The translations under genes and the position numbers were made by a program. A DNA stretch of 64,000 bases from Nakaseomyces glabratus. Taxonomy: Eukaryota > Ascomycota > Saccharomycetes > Saccharomycetales > Saccharomycetaceae. This document shows positions 6,980 through 63,709 of the stretch, in pieces. The DNA is taken from NCBI RefSeq assembly GCF_010111755.1, contig NC_088963.1, forward strand, positions 868,001 to 932,000, written 5' to 3'. The notes below the pieces were generated by a model, which saw nothing but the letters and a program-made list of their open reading frames with translations, was not told where the DNA came from and searched no databases. Each line of letters starts with the position of its first letter. The stretch's first letter is position 1.

Positions 6980-7966
6980 TCATGCTCTTAATGCCAACAC
7001 CTGTTGAGGATAGCTACGTTGCCGACATAAGGGGCATTCTGGATTTTCCTTAGTCCAGTCTGTGATACAGTCCCAACAAAATACATGCCCACAAGGTAGA
7101 CAGCTTGGATCAGTCATTTCCATCAAGCAAAGAATACAATTTCTTGATTCTGTGGGAATAAATGCCAGCTCTTTACCATTACTTAATTTGATGTGATCAA
7201 TGTTAAAATTTTCAGGTACATCTGTCAATAACCCTGGTGTTGCTGCAGGTGCAAATCCTTCTTTTAGTCCAACACCATTGGACCCAGCATTTAATGTTTC
7301 CTTTGTCTGCGGTAAGATACTCAGGACCTTGTTAATAATAGGTTTAACTTTAGAAATATGTTGTAAAAGAATAATGTAACCTAGAATCTTGTAACTCTTA
7401 CTACTCTTATCACGATAGTTTTCTTCTTCTTGTGATAAAGTATGCCCCAATGCATATCTCATACCCCAAAAACGCTTAAATACATCGTAATAAGTACCAG
7501 TTATATAGAACACCATCAAATGCAGGTCAATCATAGTACTCAAAATATCGGTGTAAGTACTCTCGTTGCCATCATCACTCTCTTCATTATTTGTACTCCT
7601 ATTATTGACCTTCTTTGAGAGCTTAGTGACCAAATAAGGAATAGAAGTATAACTAAGCACAAATAGGACCCGTTTAATTCCTCTCACCAACTGAGAACCC
7701 CGTTTATTCACATATATCAGATCGACATATTCCTCACCCAATGTTCTTCTGGATAGTGCAGTCGTCAGTCCCAAATATATCAGCTTGACAACCACTGAGA
7801 TCTCCTTCTGATAGTTATTAATGAACAACTGACCTCTTACCCCCCGTAGTAACTCGCTGACTTTTACCGATAACATTGTCTCAATCTGTTCATCCTTCTG
7901 GTGCGCCTGCACTATTGAAGGTGCACCAGCAAACGGCAACTTCCATCGTCTATCTTCTTCAACCAT
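6980..7966 (-). CDS. PEX10: Peroxisomal RING E3 ligase Pex10
   Basis: A 328-residue peroxisomal membrane protein of the Pex2-Pex10-Pex12 ubiquitin ligase complex, which ubiquitylates and recycles the import receptor Pex5. The first 250 residues hold the conserved Pex2/10/12 helical membrane domain (for example VVVKLIYLGLTTALSRRTLGEEY). The C-terminus carries a C3HC4 RING at 277-314 (CILC ... CLPCGHVFCWDC ... CPLC). S. cerevisiae Pex10 is 337 residues. The ATG at 7966 is the only plausible start. It is convergent with HEL2 (about 230 bp between stops) and divergent from AKR1, the arrangement of YDR266C-YDR264C. RING plus synteny make this secure. Confidence 0.95.
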   Translation of the reverse strand: MVEEDRRWKLPFAGAPSIVQAHQKDEQIETMLSVKVSELLRGVRGQLFINNYQKEISVVVKLIYLGLTTALSRRTLGEEYVDLIYVNKRGSQLVRGIKRVLFVLSYTSIPYLVTKLSKKVNNRSTNNEESDDGNESTYTDILSTMIDLHLMVFYITGTYYDVFKRFWGMRYALGHTLSQEEENYRDKSSKSYKILGYIILLQHISKVKPIINKVLSILPQTKETLNAGSNGVGLKEGFAPAATPGLLTDVPENFNIDHIKLSNGKELAFIPTESRNCILCLMEMTDPSCLPCGHVFCWDCITDWTKENPECPLCRQRSYPQQVLALRA

Positions 7967-56518: not shown

Positions 56519-59500
56519 ATGGATGGTGCTAATGATGAATCCGGGGCACAAAATAACAATAGTGGAAGAGGATTATGGATGGATTATAGAGGGGATATAG
56601 CACGAGATATGGATATAACTAACCAGAACCACAGTATAGATACACCAATGCCTGATACGAGGCCAGATATTGAGTTTGGATTTGGTTATAATGCTGGAAC
56701 CACTCGTGGCGGGCCATCCTTGGCTTCCATGCAGATACAACAAGGTACCAACACACACCATCAGATAAATAATGATATATCCTTCAATATTGGGAATAAT
56801 GACACTAACAGTAATGACACTAATGAAAACATTCACGTTGATAGCTTAAGAAATAATGGTAATATTCAAAGATTTACAGCAGGGGATAGACTGCCGAACA
56901 CTATTGGTAATCAGAGTGTCGCGATGGCTCGAAGCATTCCAGGAAGCATCGAGAGTCGCAATGGCTTTCCACAAGATGGCGAAGCTCTCATGGATATGAG
57001 TAACGTGGAAAGCATAGACTATAACGCGCCAGCAAAGATATTTGCAGATATGGATATTAATAGATTATTCTACGATCCAAATTTGTCGAGCTTACAGGCA
57101 GAAGATATCATAAAGCTCCATAATTTCAAGGAGGTTGTTCATCGCAAAATTGAAAACTTTATCGAAGTGATACAGAAACGGAGAGAGAGAATATTAAAAG
57201 AGATAGAATTAGGAAACCAAAGATTGGAGGGAGTTGATCTTGAGACTTCTGTTAGTGCTATGACATATCTAAATAAGCTTCAGAGAATAAGGATAAGCGC
57301 GCTAAAATCTGAAACTATGGAGCTCCAAAACTTAAGAATCCAAATTGTAAGTATCGTCGACGAATATAAGAAAGCAATGGCAGAGTATAGTAAACTGAAT
57401 CAAGAGGGTAGAAATGCCGTGAACCCTACTCCATATTTCCAAAGATGGATAAAATCATTAAACCCAGAAGATATATCAGGTCTTAACAAAGAATTGATTG
57501 AATTACAGATGTACTCCAAACAACTGTCAGATATACCAGAGCTGGCTTCAATAGAGTATCAGGTTAGTACTCCACAAACCTCACAATTTCCTCTCCGTTC
57601 TTTACCATCTGAGATACTGCATCTTGTACTTGATAAAATAACACAGAAAGCTGATATTGTGAATTTGTTAAGAGTCTGTAAGCTATGGGCTCTTATCATA
57701 GTGAAAATATTGTACTACCGCCCACATATTAACAGAAAGCACCAGTTAGATTTATTTATGCGAACAATGAAGTTAACTAAGGATGAGACAGTGTTTGATT
57801 ACCGATCAATGATTAAAAGACTGAATTTTTCCTTTGTTGGAGATCATCTGCATGATGAAGAACTTTACAACTTCGTTGGTTGTCGAAATTTGGAACGATT
57901 GACATTAGTATTTTGTAAGCATATTACAAGTGACCCGGTGGCAGCGGTTTTAAAGGGATGCAAATACCTACAGAGTGTTGATATTACTGGTATCAAAGAA
58001 ATTTATGATAATGTGTTTGATACATTGGCTGAGAGTTGCAAAAGGGTACAGGGATTTTATGTACCCCAGGCTAAGCTTGTATCATATAATGCATTAACAA
58101 ATTTTGTTTCCAATGCACCAATGTTAAAAAGAATCAAAGTTACTGCCAATGCTAACGTGAATGACGAATTTTTAGATCTTCTGGCTGAAAAATGTCCACT
58201 TTTGGTTGAAGTGGATATAACACTCAGTGCAAATGTGCATGATAGTAGTTTGACAAAGCTATTTATGAAGTTGACGCAGCTTCGTGAATTTAGAATTACT
58301 CATAATGCAAATGTGACTGACAAATTCTTTCTAGATCTTTCAAAGAATGTTAACCAACTTCCATCATTAAGGTTACTCGATTTATCTGGTTGTGAAAATA
58401 TCACGGATAAGACTATTGATAGGGTAGTTCAATTATCTCCAAAATTAAGAAACATATTCTTAGGAAAATGTAGTAGAATCACAGATTTATCCTTATTTCA
58501 TTTATCTACGCTTGGAAAGAATCTACAAACTGTGCATTTTGGGCACTGCTTCAATATAACTGATCGGGGTGTTAGGGCTCTAATAAAATCATGTCCACGT
58601 ATTCAGTATGTTGATTTTGCCTGTTGTACTAATCTGACAAATCATACATTATATGAGCTATCTTATCTAAGCAGACTCAAAAGAATTGGCCTAGTAAAAT
58701 GTTCACAGATGACAGATGACGGTCTTTTAAATATGATTGCCTTAAGAGGAAGGAATGATAGTTTGGAAAGGGTACATTTTTCATATTGTTCAAACTTAAC
58801 AATATACCCCATTTATGAGCTTCTAATGGCCTGTCCAAGGTTATCACATTTATCATTGACTGCTGTACCTTCATTTCTTCGTCCAGATATAACAGCTTTT
58901 TGTAGGCCAGCCCCATCTGACTTCAGTGATAACCAGAGACAAATCTTCTGTGTGTTTTCAGGGAAAGGTGTTCATAAACTCCGTCATTACTTAATGAGCC
59001 TGACAACACCAACAGATGGCCCTCAAATTGATGTTGGTGATACATTGGAGCAATATGTTATTTCAAAGCATTTGCTCCGTCCTGGTGAGTATTTAAACGA
59101 TGGTATAAGAAGGATTACCAGCGAGCTAAATCAGGATTCCGCTGCGATTTTGGCAGCAACTGGGTTAAATCAGATGAATGGTATGAATAGTGACTTTCCC
59201 TTTCAGAATATTGACTTTGAAAGACTGGATGAGGTGTTTAACTGGATTAATATGTCAATGGATGGTCATTCACTAAACTCTGATGAACTAAATGACTTGA
59301 TATCTGAAGTTGATAGAGATTTTTGCGATGATCCCTTTGATGAAGACTACAATAGCAGGGATTCTATTGTGGCACCTGGGGCAAATACAGGCTTGAATAG
59401 CGAACTTTGTCATATTGTTAAAAAGTTTCACAGGTTAGATGATCAAATTTGTGACTTCGAGGTTAACGTATCAAGTCTGGCTAGGGTACAGTTTCAATTC

Positions 59501-59986
59501 ACAGGATTTCTACTACATGAAATGGCACAAGCGTATATGAATATGGTTGAAATAAACAGACAGATTTGGCACATCCAGAAGACTACATTGGAAGCTGGTG
59601 TTGAAAGTGATATTAAGGCTTTATTGGTATGGAGGATATTGTTTATAGATAAGTTCACAGCTTTGCTTCACAAATACCAGATATCGACGGTGGTGTTAAG
59701 ACTCTATTTGAAAGACAGTATAACCTTATTGACTAGACAAAGGGAGTTATTTTTAGCTCATCAAAGGACACCTTGGAATCCTACAATTGTTGAAGAAGCA
59801 CCTGATTCAAACTATTGGCAATTAGTTGGAGACCGCATACAACTTCTTCCTGAGCAAATGAGGGTCATGCCCTTCGGTTTGAGAAATCCAGCCATTGCAA
59901 ACAATGCACAGCAGAACGCAGCTGAAGCCCAAAATGATGACCGCTCGGAGACACCTGAAGATGATGTAGCAATAGAAGACTTTTAA
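56519..59986 (+). CDS. GRR1: F-box and leucine-rich-repeat protein Grr1 (SCF substrate receptor)
   Basis: A 1,155-residue SCF ubiquitin-ligase receptor (S. cerevisiae 1,151) that targets G1 cyclins, Mth1 and other regulators and is needed for glucose-induced transporter expression. The ATG at 56519 is the first; the open frame continues 13 codons higher only from TTG. The N-terminal 350 residues are Asn-rich with a coiled coil (MTYLNKLQRIRISALKSETM). The F-box is at about 357-405 (PLRSLPSEILHLVLDKITQK, then VNLLRVCKLWA). A dozen cysteine-containing leucine-rich repeats run from about 458 to 794 (LRLLDLSGCENITDKTIDRV, LQTVHFGHCFNITDRGVRAL). A helical C-terminal region follows. Position matches YJR090C. 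Confidence 0.97.
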   Translation: MDGANDESGAQNNNSGRGLWMDYRGDIARDMDITNQNHSIDTPMPDTRPDIEFGFGYNAGTTRGGPSLASMQIQQGTNTHHQINNDISFNIGNNDTNSNDTNENIHVDSLRNNGNIQRFTAGDRLPNTIGNQSVAMARSIPGSIESRNGFPQDGEALMDMSNVESIDYNAPAKIFADMDINRLFYDPNLSSLQAEDIIKLHNFKEVVHRKIENFIEVIQKRRERILKEIELGNQRLEGVDLETSVSAMTYLNKLQRIRISALKSETMELQNLRIQIVSIVDEYKKAMAEYSKLNQEGRNAVNPTPYFQRWIKSLNPEDISGLNKELIELQMYSKQLSDIPELASIEYQVSTPQTSQFPLRSLPSEILHLVLDKITQKADIVNLLRVCKLWALIIVKILYYRPHINRKHQLDLFMRTMKLTKDETVFDYRSMIKRLNFSFVGDHLHDEELYNFVGCRNLERLTLVFCKHITSDPVAAVLKGCKYLQSVDITGIKEIYDNVFDTLAESCKRVQGFYVPQAKLVSYNALTNFVSNAPMLKRIKVTANANVNDEFLDLLAEKCPLLVEVDITLSANVHDSSLTKLFMKLTQLREFRITHNANVTDKFFLDLSKNVNQLPSLRLLDLSGCENITDKTIDRVVQLSPKLRNIFLGKCSRITDLSLFHLSTLGKNLQTVHFGHCFNITDRGVRALIKSCPRIQYVDFACCTNLTNHTLYELSYLSRLKRIGLVKCSQMTDDGLLNMIALRGRNDSLERVHFSYCSNLTIYPIYELLMACPRLSHLSLTAVPSFLRPDITAFCRPAPSDFSDNQRQIFCVFSGKGVHKLRHYLMSLTTPTDGPQIDVGDTLEQYVISKHLLRPGEYLNDGIRRITSELNQDSAAILAATGLNQMNGMNSDFPFQNIDFERLDEVFNWINMSMDGHSLNSDELNDLISEVDRDFCDDPFDEDYNSRDSIVAPGANTGLNSELCHIVKKFHRLDDQICDFEVNVSSLARVQFQFTGFLLHEMAQAYMNMVEINRQIWHIQKTTLEAGVESDIKALLVWRILFIDKFTALLHKYQISTVVLRLYLKDSITLLTRQRELFLAHQRTPWNPTIVEEAPDSNYWQLVGDRIQLLPEQMRVMPFGLRNPAIANNAQQNAAEAQNDDRSETPEDDVAIEDF

Positions 59987-60120: not shown

Positions 60121-62596
60121 TTAAATTTCATAACACCCCAGGCGTTTTGCAATGGTAACTAGTTCGTCATCATTGGTGGAGTTGTTGATTAAGGACTGCT
60201 TTGCTAGTATGGACTTCTTTAATATCAGCAATTTTTTATTTAATGCAGATTTGAATTCTTGTTTAACACCTTCAACTTTCTCGATAATCCAAGATTCAAA
60301 TTTCATGTCCAGTTCTCTATTCGGGATATGCTTCACAAAGTTCTCAATTTCACCATCAACATCTGTATTAAGTGTTAAGTCATTTTTGTTCATATAAACC
60401 AGCAAGTCATGAAAAAACTGTTTTACGGTTTTGGTGTCTTCATCCAATTCATTTATTTGAATTTTAAATTCCACTGCATTATTATCTTTTGGCGTTGATT
60501 TCATTTCATTCGATCTATCACTTTTTAAGTGATCTGAATGACTCGATTCAGAATTCGACTGGAATTTATGGTTATCAATGGCGGGTAGAACAAGTGGATC
60601 ATCCCCAAGTCCAATTTCTTCACTTTGTTTGGATGCTTTCGAAATGTCAATAGTAGTAGGTGTTCTTCTATTTGGAGAAAAAGGTAAATTTTTAATGGGC
60701 TTCAGTGGTGTACCCATCTCAATTTTTGAAGAGTTTATATCTGAGATGCTCTCAATCGAATTTTCCGAAGGAAAGTTATGGGGAGCAATATGGTTACTAA
60801 TAGAGATGCCTAAGCTTATTATATTTCAGCTTAACTGGTGTTTGAGCCAGTTTTGAAGTAAGAAAACCTAAGGTTTCTTTTGTAGGTGATGCATTGCCTT
60901 CTTTTGAAGCGATCGGAGATGGACTCTTTATCGGAGATGGGATTACACTGGATTGCGGTGAATCTAATTCAGATGATTCGTCCCCCGAATATTGTACGTT
61001 CTCCTCGCATTCTGCAGTATCCTTATTAATATTTTCAGTTACGTTATGAATTTCCGATTTGTTATCATTTTTAGATGAGGAAGTTGGAACTCTGGGTGTC
61101 TGAATCTCTTCTTGTAGTTTTTTTGTGTTATTGTTATTGTATTTATTATGAAATTCGGCGCTACTTGTCCCATTGTCATTGTTGTCTTTTGAGGGACTAC
61201 TTGAAATCGAGATGTCGTTTGAACGATCACTTTTATTTTGAACTCTCTTAGGTGACTGTAATTCAGCAGGAATTGACGGTTCTGGGATATGGAAAGCATT
61301 ATCACCGTATTTACTAAAGCCAAAGTCATCAATGCTGTCATCGAGCAGTTGGTTCTTTCTGGACTTTCCTTTCTTTCGGTGATAATGATTCTCGAAATTA
61401 ATAACTGGCTCTTTATCTTCAGAACTATCAGAATGATTATTTGTATCATCGCCTGAAAAGTTATTCGACAATGATAAACGTACTGGAGAGATTCTTTTTA
61501 ATCTTCTTCTCTTAGTTGGTGGACTTACTGATAGTTTATTAGCTGATTGGTCTTGATCTGCTTTCATAATATCTAATCTTTTCGGACTTTCATCTGCAAC
61601 AATTTCAGCTTCATCAGATAAGCTTCTTTTCCTATCTTTTGAGTTATTTTCATCAGAGTTTTCCTTCTCGTTAACATGTGGGTCTTGTTCTTTCTCATCT
61701 TCACTATTCATCGCTAGATCTTCATCTGGGTTATAGTTTAGATCATCTATATCAATAGATGATCTTGTTGAATTGGCATTATCACTGTTGTAGCTTTCTT
61801 CGTGTCCTTCATCAGAAGTGGGCAAAGTCAATACATCGTTATCGTTTGAATCAGCATTGTCATTGTGCTCTGAGTTCATCTTACCATCCAGTAGTTTCAA
61901 TGACTCTAATTCATCTCCATGGTTGCTGGCGTACTTCTCAAGGAAATAGCACTGATTGTTTGCACATGTCGCGTAATGACTCTGTATTGGTGTCAGTTCC
62001 CTTTGTAAAATCACAATAGATTGAGAATACGGGCAAAAGCAAGCAGACCGTTCTTGATCCTTCGCCATATCTTGGAAATTTGTCAATGATATATCATAGT
62101 TAATTAAGCCTGCTTGTACACAGCCGTTTACTGTAGCATGGTGCTTATCATTGTGGTCGAACTTGGACGGTACCGACTGGAAGGTCATTGTTGCATACTT
62201 AGCGAACTCCGCTGCAAATGGGTCGCTGAAACCGGGCACCTGGGTCCATTCTATAACTTTCTTTTGCGTATACCGCCATATCAGATCAGCATTCACACAG
62301 CTGTGCTCCTCGTAGTGGGCCTTCAGCACATTGTAAATGGTTTCGAGCTTCCTCTTGCGCTTTGATCTGTAGCTCTGTAGATCACCAGTGGACCCGCCAC
62401 AGTAAATACAGCATACTTGGTTGTCAGCAGCACCATCCGTAACAACGGGGGCGTAGTACATCCCGAGGTGCGCCAGCAGATCACCAGGTATCGCAGTGTA
62501 CCTCCACTTCATTCGCTTGCCAGAAACCTCAAACTGCTCCTGGAAGGTCTGTAACCGCGCACTCAACAACCGCATACGCGTATCCATAGTGGTCAT
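60121..62596 (-). CDS. BIR1: Survivin-like Bir1, encoded in two frames joined by a probable +1 ribosomal frameshift
   Basis: Chromosomal passenger complex subunit (with Ipl1 and Sli15) at the position of S. cerevisiae BIR1 (YJR089W, 954 residues). The first frame, 62596-60797, codes 599 residues: two BIR domains, the first with CCIYCGG and HYEEHSC zinc ligands near 80-125, the second with ACFCPYS and HYATCANNQC near 190-225, then a long acidic Ser/Asn-rich region. The second frame, ending at 60121, codes a helical tail (TVKQFFHDLLVYMNKNDLTL, then FESWIIEKVEGVKQEFKSAL), the kind of segment that binds INCENP in survivins. A +1 slip at CTT-AGG-C (60814-60808) reads straight through and yields about 824 residues. 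Without it the protein ends four codons later. Confidence 0.9.
60808..60814 (-). other. Ty1-type +1 frameshift heptamer CTT-AGG-C in BIR1
   Basis: On the minus strand the zero-frame codons are AAG CTT AGG CAT CTC TAT TAG. Skipping the A at 60811 gives CTT GGC ATC TCT and leads into the downstream frame, which is open to 60121. The +1 frame has a TGA at 60828-60826, so the frame change must occur in the roughly 29 nt between that TGA and the TAG at 60799-60797. The heptamer sits inside this interval and in the right phase. CUU-AGG-C alone is sufficient for Ty1 frameshifting in S. cerevisiae. Confidence 0.85.
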
Positions 62597-62827: not shown

Positions 62828-63709
62828 ATGAGGGACTTGAGACGTGAGAAACTGCTTACCGTGATGACCACGCGGGCTTACACGCGGTTTGAGCCGCAGG
62901 AGCTGGTGCAATTGTACAACGAGCTGCTGATGAGGATGGGGAAGCTTGAGCGGTCGAGCGAACCCAATGATGTCTCGCTGCTGGAGATGTACTTTTATGT
63001 GTGCTGCTACCTTGGCAAGGACCAGGAGATGTCGCTTGTGTTTCAGCGTTTGAGGGACAGATTTGGCGAGAGTTCCCCTAGAGTTGCTGTGATGAAGGCT
63101 ACTATGATGGAAGTTGAGGGCAACGACAGTAGTGCTGCTAAGCAGTACCTAGAAGGTCGTTTGAAGGAGCTGGAGTACGATGCCGATAGTGTGAGCTACG
63201 TGATGCTGTCTAAGAAGTTACTCGCTCTAAAGATGAGGGACTTGAAGAAGAACCCACAACAGCAGCTCAAAGAGACATTGGCGTTAATAGAGAAGTTTCC
63301 GCTGGACCCGGAGTTGCAGTGGGTGTGCTCTGAGCTGTACTACTCGCTGAAAGACCTAGACAAGGCGATATACTGCATCGAAGAAGTTCTGGTGGCGATG
63401 CCATTCAACTATGTAGCGTTCGCTAGGCTCTCCGAGCTGCTGTATTACAAGTATGTGCGTGAGTTCCAGGATAAGCCTGCGAAGAGGAGAGACACTGCAG
63501 CCTTGCAGCAAGCGCTGGACAACGCCCTTCGTAGTGTCGAGCTGAGCGAGCTGTTCTTGAAAGGATGGTCCCTGGTGGCTACCATCAGTAAGGAGCTGGA
63601 TAAACCACAACTGCTACAGTTGTCGAAGAAGAAGCTGCAAGAGATCAGTGAAGTGTCAAACAGCAACGACGCCCGTATAGCCAAGAAGTTCCTACAGAAG
63701 ATGGCATAA
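62828..63709 (+). CDS. EMC2: ER membrane protein complex subunit Emc2
   Basis: A 293-residue TPR protein (S. cerevisiae Emc2 292), the cytosolic scaffold subunit of the ER membrane protein complex, which inserts moderately hydrophobic transmembrane segments. I use the ATG at 62828; the frame runs 15 codons higher only from a GTG. Helical TPR-like repeats fill the sequence (EMYFYVCCYLGKDQEMSLVF, LQWVCSELYYSLKDLDKAIY, FNYVAFARLSELLYYKYVRE). There is no signal or membrane segment, as expected for this peripheral subunit. Codons are GC-rich. Divergent from BIR1 and convergent with STE18, as YJR088C. Confidence 0.93.
   Translation: MRDLRREKLLTVMTTRAYTRFEPQELVQLYNELLMRMGKLERSSEPNDVSLLEMYFYVCCYLGKDQEMSLVFQRLRDRFGESSPRVAVMKATMMEVEGNDSSAAKQYLEGRLKELEYDADSVSYVMLSKKLLALKMRDLKKNPQQQLKETLALIEKFPLDPELQWVCSELYYSLKDLDKAIYCIEEVLVAMPFNYVAFARLSELLYYKYVREFQDKPAKRRDTAALQQALDNALRSVELSELFLKGWSLVATISKELDKPQLLQLSKKKLQEISEVSNSNDARIAKKFLQKMA

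Follow-up and report, generated by a model that had tools for sequence, protein, structure and literature searches.

The DNA analyzed here is a 64-kb window (64,000 nt) of the Nakaseomyces glabratus genome, in which BIR1 lies on the minus strand, divided between two overlapping reading frames. The zero-frame open reading frame (ORF) of 599 codons runs from ATG 62596 to TAG 60799-60797, and the +1 frame is closed at TGA 60828-60826 and open thereafter until TAA 60123-60121. The only stretch open in both frames measures 26 nt (60825-60800), and it holds the single CTTAGGC of the zero-frame ORF. This heptamer stands in zero-frame phase, with CTT at 60814-60812, the base that would be skipped at A 60811, and GGC at 60810-60808. 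Translation through the shift predicts a product of 824 amino acids with the junction Leu595-Gly596-Ile597. An initial annotation of this DNA had described a split BIR1 with CTT-AGG-C in phase, and the recomputed ORFs and stops confirmed the split, its coordinates, and the phase. Its product sizes of 599 and about 824 residues, joined at Leu595-Gly-Ile, were likewise reproduced. The overlap exists where it had been placed, but the length of about 29 nt given for it had to be corrected to 26 nt. Across the 64-kb window, the BIR1 pair was the only one found in a scan for split ORF pairs with 150 or more codons on either side.

The features of the locus are collected in Table 1. The neighboring ORF at 56519..59986 is presumably GRR1, which adjoins BIR1 in Saccharomyces cerevisiae. 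The 293-aa ORF on the other side had no Pfam match at E 0.01, and its presumed name, EMC2, comes only from the order GRR1-BIR1-EMC2 of S. cerevisiae. Within BIR1, the match to PF00653 is weak, with E values of 0.0006 for the 599-aa ORF and 0.0014 for the 824-aa product, both under the Pfam cut-off; an NCBIfam search and a search of solved-structure sequences gave no useful match.

Table 1. Coordinates of features at the BIR1 locus (positions within the window)
Feature	Position	Strand	Basis or remark
F-box/LRR protein, GRR1-like (neighbor)	56519..59986	+	Pfam F-box-like and LRR_4 above cut-off
+1-frame ORF, GGC to TAA, predicted Bir1 C-terminal part	60121..60810	-	229 codons; codon usage
Best-conserved section of +1 tail (LDEDTKTVKQFFHDLL...DVDGEIENFV...)	60121..60447	-	Alignment with relatives
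First post-shift +1-frame ATG (possible internal start, rival reading)	60715..60717	-	Opens 198-aa ORF
BIR1 zero-frame ORF	60797..62596	-	599 aa; N-terminus BIR-like; C-terminal end ...NKLRHLY-stop
TAG, zero-frame stop	60797..60799	-	8 nt downstream of heptamer
Heptamer CTT-A-GGC (candidate frameshift site)	60808..60814	-	Base to be skipped, A 60811
TGA, last +1-frame stop upstream of heptamer	60826..60828	-	ORF reading
BIR-like region, residues 14-72	62381..62557	-	PF00653, 19.6 and 20.7 bits, under cut-off 22.9
293-aa ORF, presumably EMC2-like (neighbor)	62828..63709	+	ORF list

Coding signal and chance occurrence of the heptamer

Both the zero-frame part and the +1 tail are coding. Codon usage was scored as log-odds in bits per codon, trained on 25 further ORFs in the window, each of 200 aa or more; these are ORFs rather than annotated genes and include three pairs overlapping by more than 150 nt, so that a few may be spurious. 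Over the 60 codons upstream of the heptamer, the zero frame scored highest (0.23 vs -0.15 and 0.00). From ATG 60717 to the end, the +1 frame was on top (0.24 vs 0.03 and 0.06), and in 150-nt windows with stops penalized, the frame changed between 60946 and 60646, with no preferred frame in the window spanning the site. These codon-usage differences between frames are modest. Over the stretch from the TAG to the close of the +1 frame, stops number 36 (including the TAG) and 16 in the two remaining frames, while the +1 frame has none over its 229 codons.

A layout of this kind could also serve two proteins: the 599-aa fragment, plus a C-terminal one translated from ATG 60717 after internal initiation or reinitiation. 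The +1 frame does hold the 198-aa ORF that such a start would open. Translation in the +1 frame nevertheless seems to begin earlier. The 31 codons from GGC to ATG 60717, short as that stretch is, contain no stop and have their best codon usage in the +1 frame (0.16 vs -0.17 and -0.15). The 198-aa ORF matches P0004 (99% over 64%) and a relative, P0005 (51% identity over 52% of the query), and P0005 also has in common the short stretch SDIN-SKIE, which lies upstream of the first +1-frame ATG and whose score was equalled in 6 of 5000 shuffles. Conservation of this stretch as +1-frame protein argues against an independent internal start. On the conserved sequence and the codon usage upstream of it, the start at ATG 60717 was rejected, and we regard a pair of separate proteins as highly improbable.

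Genome-wide, CTTAGGC occurs in 389 copies on both strands of 12,726,212 bases, or 1.5e-5 per position and strand. At this density, the chance of an in-phase copy within the overlap is about 1.5e-4 for 10 slots (1.4e-4 for 9). If about half a dozen known yeast +1 sites are admitted, the chance becomes, as a rough estimate, about 1e-3. No in-frame CTT-AGG-C start was present among the 13,444 codons of the 25 comparison ORFs, and one in-frame CTT-AGT-T start was counted among them.

Two further observations concern such words elsewhere. At window position 7657 (minus strand), CTT-AGT-T stands in frame within a long ORF, with 225 codons remaining in the zero frame and 37 in +1, and a leaky shift at that place would shorten the encoded protein. 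The 389 genomic copies of CTTAGGC compare with 678 for the same letters reversed; perhaps a shift-prone word is avoided, though this comparison takes no account of composition.

Homologues, tRNA genes, and other +1 genes

Searching protein sequences with the 824-residue product gave two matches, P0002 and P0003, both of them N-terminal parts. P0002 is 596 aa long, belongs to a cluster with 57 members, shows 3 differences from the window over 596 residues, and ends in KLRHLY. P0003, from Nakaseomyces bracarensis, has 587 aa and 41% identity and ends in HKLRLRQL. The protein thus ends shortly past K-L-R in both N-terminal homologues, of which one (P0002) is near-identical and only P0003 is clearly from another species. 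K-L-R followed by His or Leu would allow CTT-AGG-C at this place, and for N. bracarensis we infer a putative heptamer from the protein end. When more distant Bir1 proteins were sought with a profile, the same two came back and nothing further. The P0002 record begins at the second Met (residue 4; window 62596-62587, minus strand). BIR1 is single-copy, as both matches in the genome search fall within the window gene and no second copy was found. Gale et al. (PMC7534453) describe the BIR1 features as kept in the Nakaseomyces clade, naming five species in their Results and six in their Discussion.

Any split ORF may be the product of a sequencing or assembly error. P0002, with its three residue differences, ends at the identical KLRHLY, the N. 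bracarensis protein ends alike, and an in-frame stop is also reported in the Candida glabrata reference (PMC7534453). The initial annotation had held an error to be unlikely, and with these matching ends it is barely credible.

An intron could in principle take out the stop and restore the frame. Of seven donor-like words, four are indeed present: GTAAGT, GTACGT, and GTAAGA each appear a single time and GTATGC three times, and all of these lie well upstream in the gene, at positions of at least 61483. The main donor GTATGT is absent from the gene, however, as are all eight branch-point words searched (including TACTAAC), and the intron was rejected on both counts. One mRNA spans the gene according to Gale et al. 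(PMC7534453). We consider splicing an extremely improbable explanation.

The gene has also been filed as a pseudogene, which would mean inactivation by a frameshift mutation and a merely coincidental heptamer. BIR1 carries that label in the C. glabrata reference annotation (per PMC7534453), and Lafontaine and Dujon (2010) list CAGL0Mp1 and ZYRO0Gp11 as BIR1 pseudogenes (PMC2876123). Their list exempted EST3, OAZ1, and ABP140 because the shift in these genes was already known (PMC2876123). Against inactivation, both parts of BIR1 retain coding character and conservation of the tail extends to a relative; both N-terminal homologues end just past K-L-R, with no second BIR1 copy present; and the heptamer in phase is exactly of the Ty1 type. 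We therefore think it very unlikely that BIR1 is a pseudogene.

The tRNA genes that would act at the site were located with anticodon patterns, since just 63 of the 810 candidates in the Rfam tRNA search received a score. For tRNA-Arg(CCU), pattern search combined with ARAGORN left one real tRNA from six pattern matches. For tRNA-Arg(UCU), there were 18 pattern matches; 10 were scanned, and nine of these are tRNAs, with the tenth locus lacking an Arg tRNA. With one gene against nine for Arg(UCU), tRNA-Arg(CCU) appears scarce, with gene number taken as a proxy for tRNA amount and with patterns that can miss genes. Five pattern matches for tRNA-Leu(UAG) gave four tRNAs, and a second pattern gave the same four; ARAGORN recognized none of these four loci without introns and all four once a 27-nt intron was permitted. 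Two pattern searches, which may miss genes, found no Leu(GAG) or Leu(AAG) tRNA genes.

The genome also holds other genes with +1 sites. On contig 10 lies a locus that we take to be ABP140, identified through its N-terminus MGVADLIKKFE. Near position 1058 of this locus (reverse strand), it reads CTT-AGG-CCT-TGA, with the heptamer directly before the stop. It has 336 codons open in +1, and this open frame, which measures 484 codons in all, carries the Methyltransf_12 match. ABP140 is a natural internal control for BIR1 in the same genome. EST3 contains CTT-AGT-T within its two-frame overlap, and OAZ1 retains GCG-TGA-C, so that both genes cited by the initial annotation as the other classic yeast cases have their classic sites here.

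A candidate frameshift at CUU-AGG-C and its likely strength

Much the best explanation of this locus is that BIR1 is expressed through a programmed +1 frameshift at CUU-AGG-C, and we consider this very probable as a reading of the sequence. It was the core proposal of the initial annotation, and position, phase, codon usage, conservation, tRNA genes, and the ABP140 site all support it. A ribosome with peptidyl-tRNA-Leu(UAG) on CUU would pause at the next codon, AGG, because only one tRNA-Arg(CCU) gene appears to supply the tRNA that decodes it. The tRNA-Leu(UAG) could then re-pair one base downstream, on UUA, after which GGC would be decoded as Gly and translation in the +1 frame would continue to the 824-residue Bir1. 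This product would include the C-terminal part, whose presumed counterpart in S. cerevisiae binds Sli15 and Nbl1. Without a shift, a ribosome would meet a stop 8 nt later and would release a fragment of 599 residues that contains the BIR-like region.

The steps proposed for BIR1 resemble those described for Ty1, where tRNA-Leu(UAG), a poor reader of CUU, slips onto UUA if decoding of AGG is slow, with the site alone giving about 40% shifting (PMC5009743). In S. cerevisiae, the heptamer is reported at about 40% and ABP140, with an upstream stem-loop, at 60% (PMC12661321); BIR1 is absent from the main text of that paper. Rare tRNA-Arg(CCU) is also cited for Ty1, and the nearby stop is reported to make the Ty1 shift dependent on eIF5A (PMC10855120).

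RNA folding around the BIR1 site gave no significant upstream element. A stem-loop in the 60 nt upstream of the heptamer was not significant (z -0.90, with 32 of 200 shuffles folding as well), nor was the fold of the upstream 90 nt (z -0.63, 50 of 200 as good), and the downstream 60 nt were not clearly structured (z -1.66, 11 of 200). A 6-bp hairpin, AACTGG/CCAGTT, occupies 60852-60833 (minus strand) and ends 18 nt ahead of the heptamer. An ABP140-type upstream stimulator was rejected for BIR1, given the non-significant fold and a hairpin that stands 18 nt away rather than 6 nt. As no significant upstream stem-loop is present, the shift rate at BIR1 would be expected to equal that of the bare heptamer, by extrapolation from S. 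cerevisiae.

A variant of the frameshift explanation, compatible with it, is that the shift is real but merely tolerated, the bare site yielding enough Bir1 with no regulation of dose. The lack of a significant RNA stimulator at BIR1 fits this variant, as does the reported efficiency of the bare heptamer without any added element (PMC12661321, PMC5009743). Conservation as reported for Nakaseomyces, together with a +1 site in Zygosaccharomyces BIR1, suggests instead that the shift brings some benefit, although the loss of a working shift may be rare. We give toleration an even chance.

Several reports bear on what the tail would do. In S. cerevisiae, the essential function of Bir1 can be supplied by its C-terminal 297 residues, and the C-terminal 228 bind Nbl1 and Sli15, with a triple helix proposed at 889-941 (PMC5592945). 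Bir1, Nbl1, and Sli15 form a helix bundle, and Bir1 recruits the complex (PMC6546395). By size, the 229 post-shift codons would correspond to this Sli15/Nbl1-binding region.

For mRNA on which ribosomes do not shift, the roughly 680 nt after the zero-frame TAG (60121-60799, minus strand) would amount to a long 3′ UTR, and sensitivity to nonsense-mediated decay is conceivable. Loss of nonsense-mediated decay suppresses bir1-17 in S. cerevisiae (PMC5592945).

Prior reports and comparison with known systems

The idea of a +1 shift in BIR1 is already known and has been proposed in print. The statement of the initial annotation that no report existed for BIR1 is refuted by Gale et al. 2020 (PMC7534453) and Ortiz-Merino et al. 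2017 (PMC5433688). Gale et al. argue that the pseudogene annotation of C. glabrata BIR1 is probably wrong, on the grounds of a conserved +1 tail, a single mRNA, a 7-base +1 site just before the stop, and the retention of these features across the clade. Regulated Bir1 and chromosome instability are also taken up in that paper, where the idea of the initial annotation that the shift rate could set the amount of functional chromosomal passenger complex is raised in similar form. Weak Bir1 is offered there as a possible reason for the finding that several kinetochore genes not essential in S. cerevisiae are essential in C. glabrata (PMC7534453). In Zygosaccharomyces parabailii, both BIR1 homeologs are described as requiring a +1 shift at CTT-A-GTT (Ortiz-Merino et al. 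2017, PMC5433688). Among the matches listed in the open-access literature, outside which most subscription journals lie, we recognized no further report or direct test of the BIR1 shift or of dose control.

A broader history can be sketched, which taken as a whole we consider rather unlikely. The BIR1 shift would be ancient in Saccharomycetaceae, predating the split between Zygosaccharomyces and the WGD yeasts, with the heptamer swapped between CTT-A-GTT and CTT-A-GGC, the shift lost in S. cerevisiae, where BIR1 is single-frame, and the gene catalogued on two occasions as a pseudogene. Set by the supply of tRNA-Arg(CCU) and by termination factors, the shift rate would tune full-length Bir1 against the BIR-region fragment and hence the fidelity of segregation. 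As the heptamers of Nakaseomyces and Zygosaccharomyces are unlike, an ancient shift and two origins are both possible.

If BIR1 is indeed expressed by a +1 shift, a yeast that infects humans would depend on non-standard reading for a mitotic regulator essential in S. cerevisiae. BIR1 would then not be the pseudogene of the catalogues and would join the short list of cellular +1-frameshift genes, with a possible link between tRNA supply and chromosome segregation.

The closest comparison is C. glabrata BIR1, CAGL0M09152g (PMC7534453), which is very probably the same gene and site, with an in-frame stop, a 7-base site, and a +1 tail. Its stop is given at position 588 and that of the window lies at codon 600, and the two sites are likened by description rather than by the letters of the heptamer. 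Z. parabailii BIR1 is the same gene with a +1 shift, but its site is of the EST3 type, CTT-A-GTT, as opposed to CTT-A-GGC here (PMC5433688). ABP140/TRM140 has the identical CTT-AGG-C with a stop soon after, as in BIR1; in S. cerevisiae, a stem-loop 6 nt upstream lifts ABP140 shifting from 40% to 60% (PMC12661321), whereas BIR1 has no comparable structure. Ty1 gag-pol, a retrotransposon gene, uses the identical heptamer, with slippage of P-site tRNA-Leu(UAG) at a slow AGG (PMC5009743), and its zero-frame stop lies 18 nt from the slippery sequence (PMC10855120) compared with 8 nt in BIR1. EST3 and OAZ1 are likewise cellular genes that need a +1 shift, though their heptamers differ (CTT-AGT-T and GCG-TGA-C), and OAZ1 responds to polyamines.
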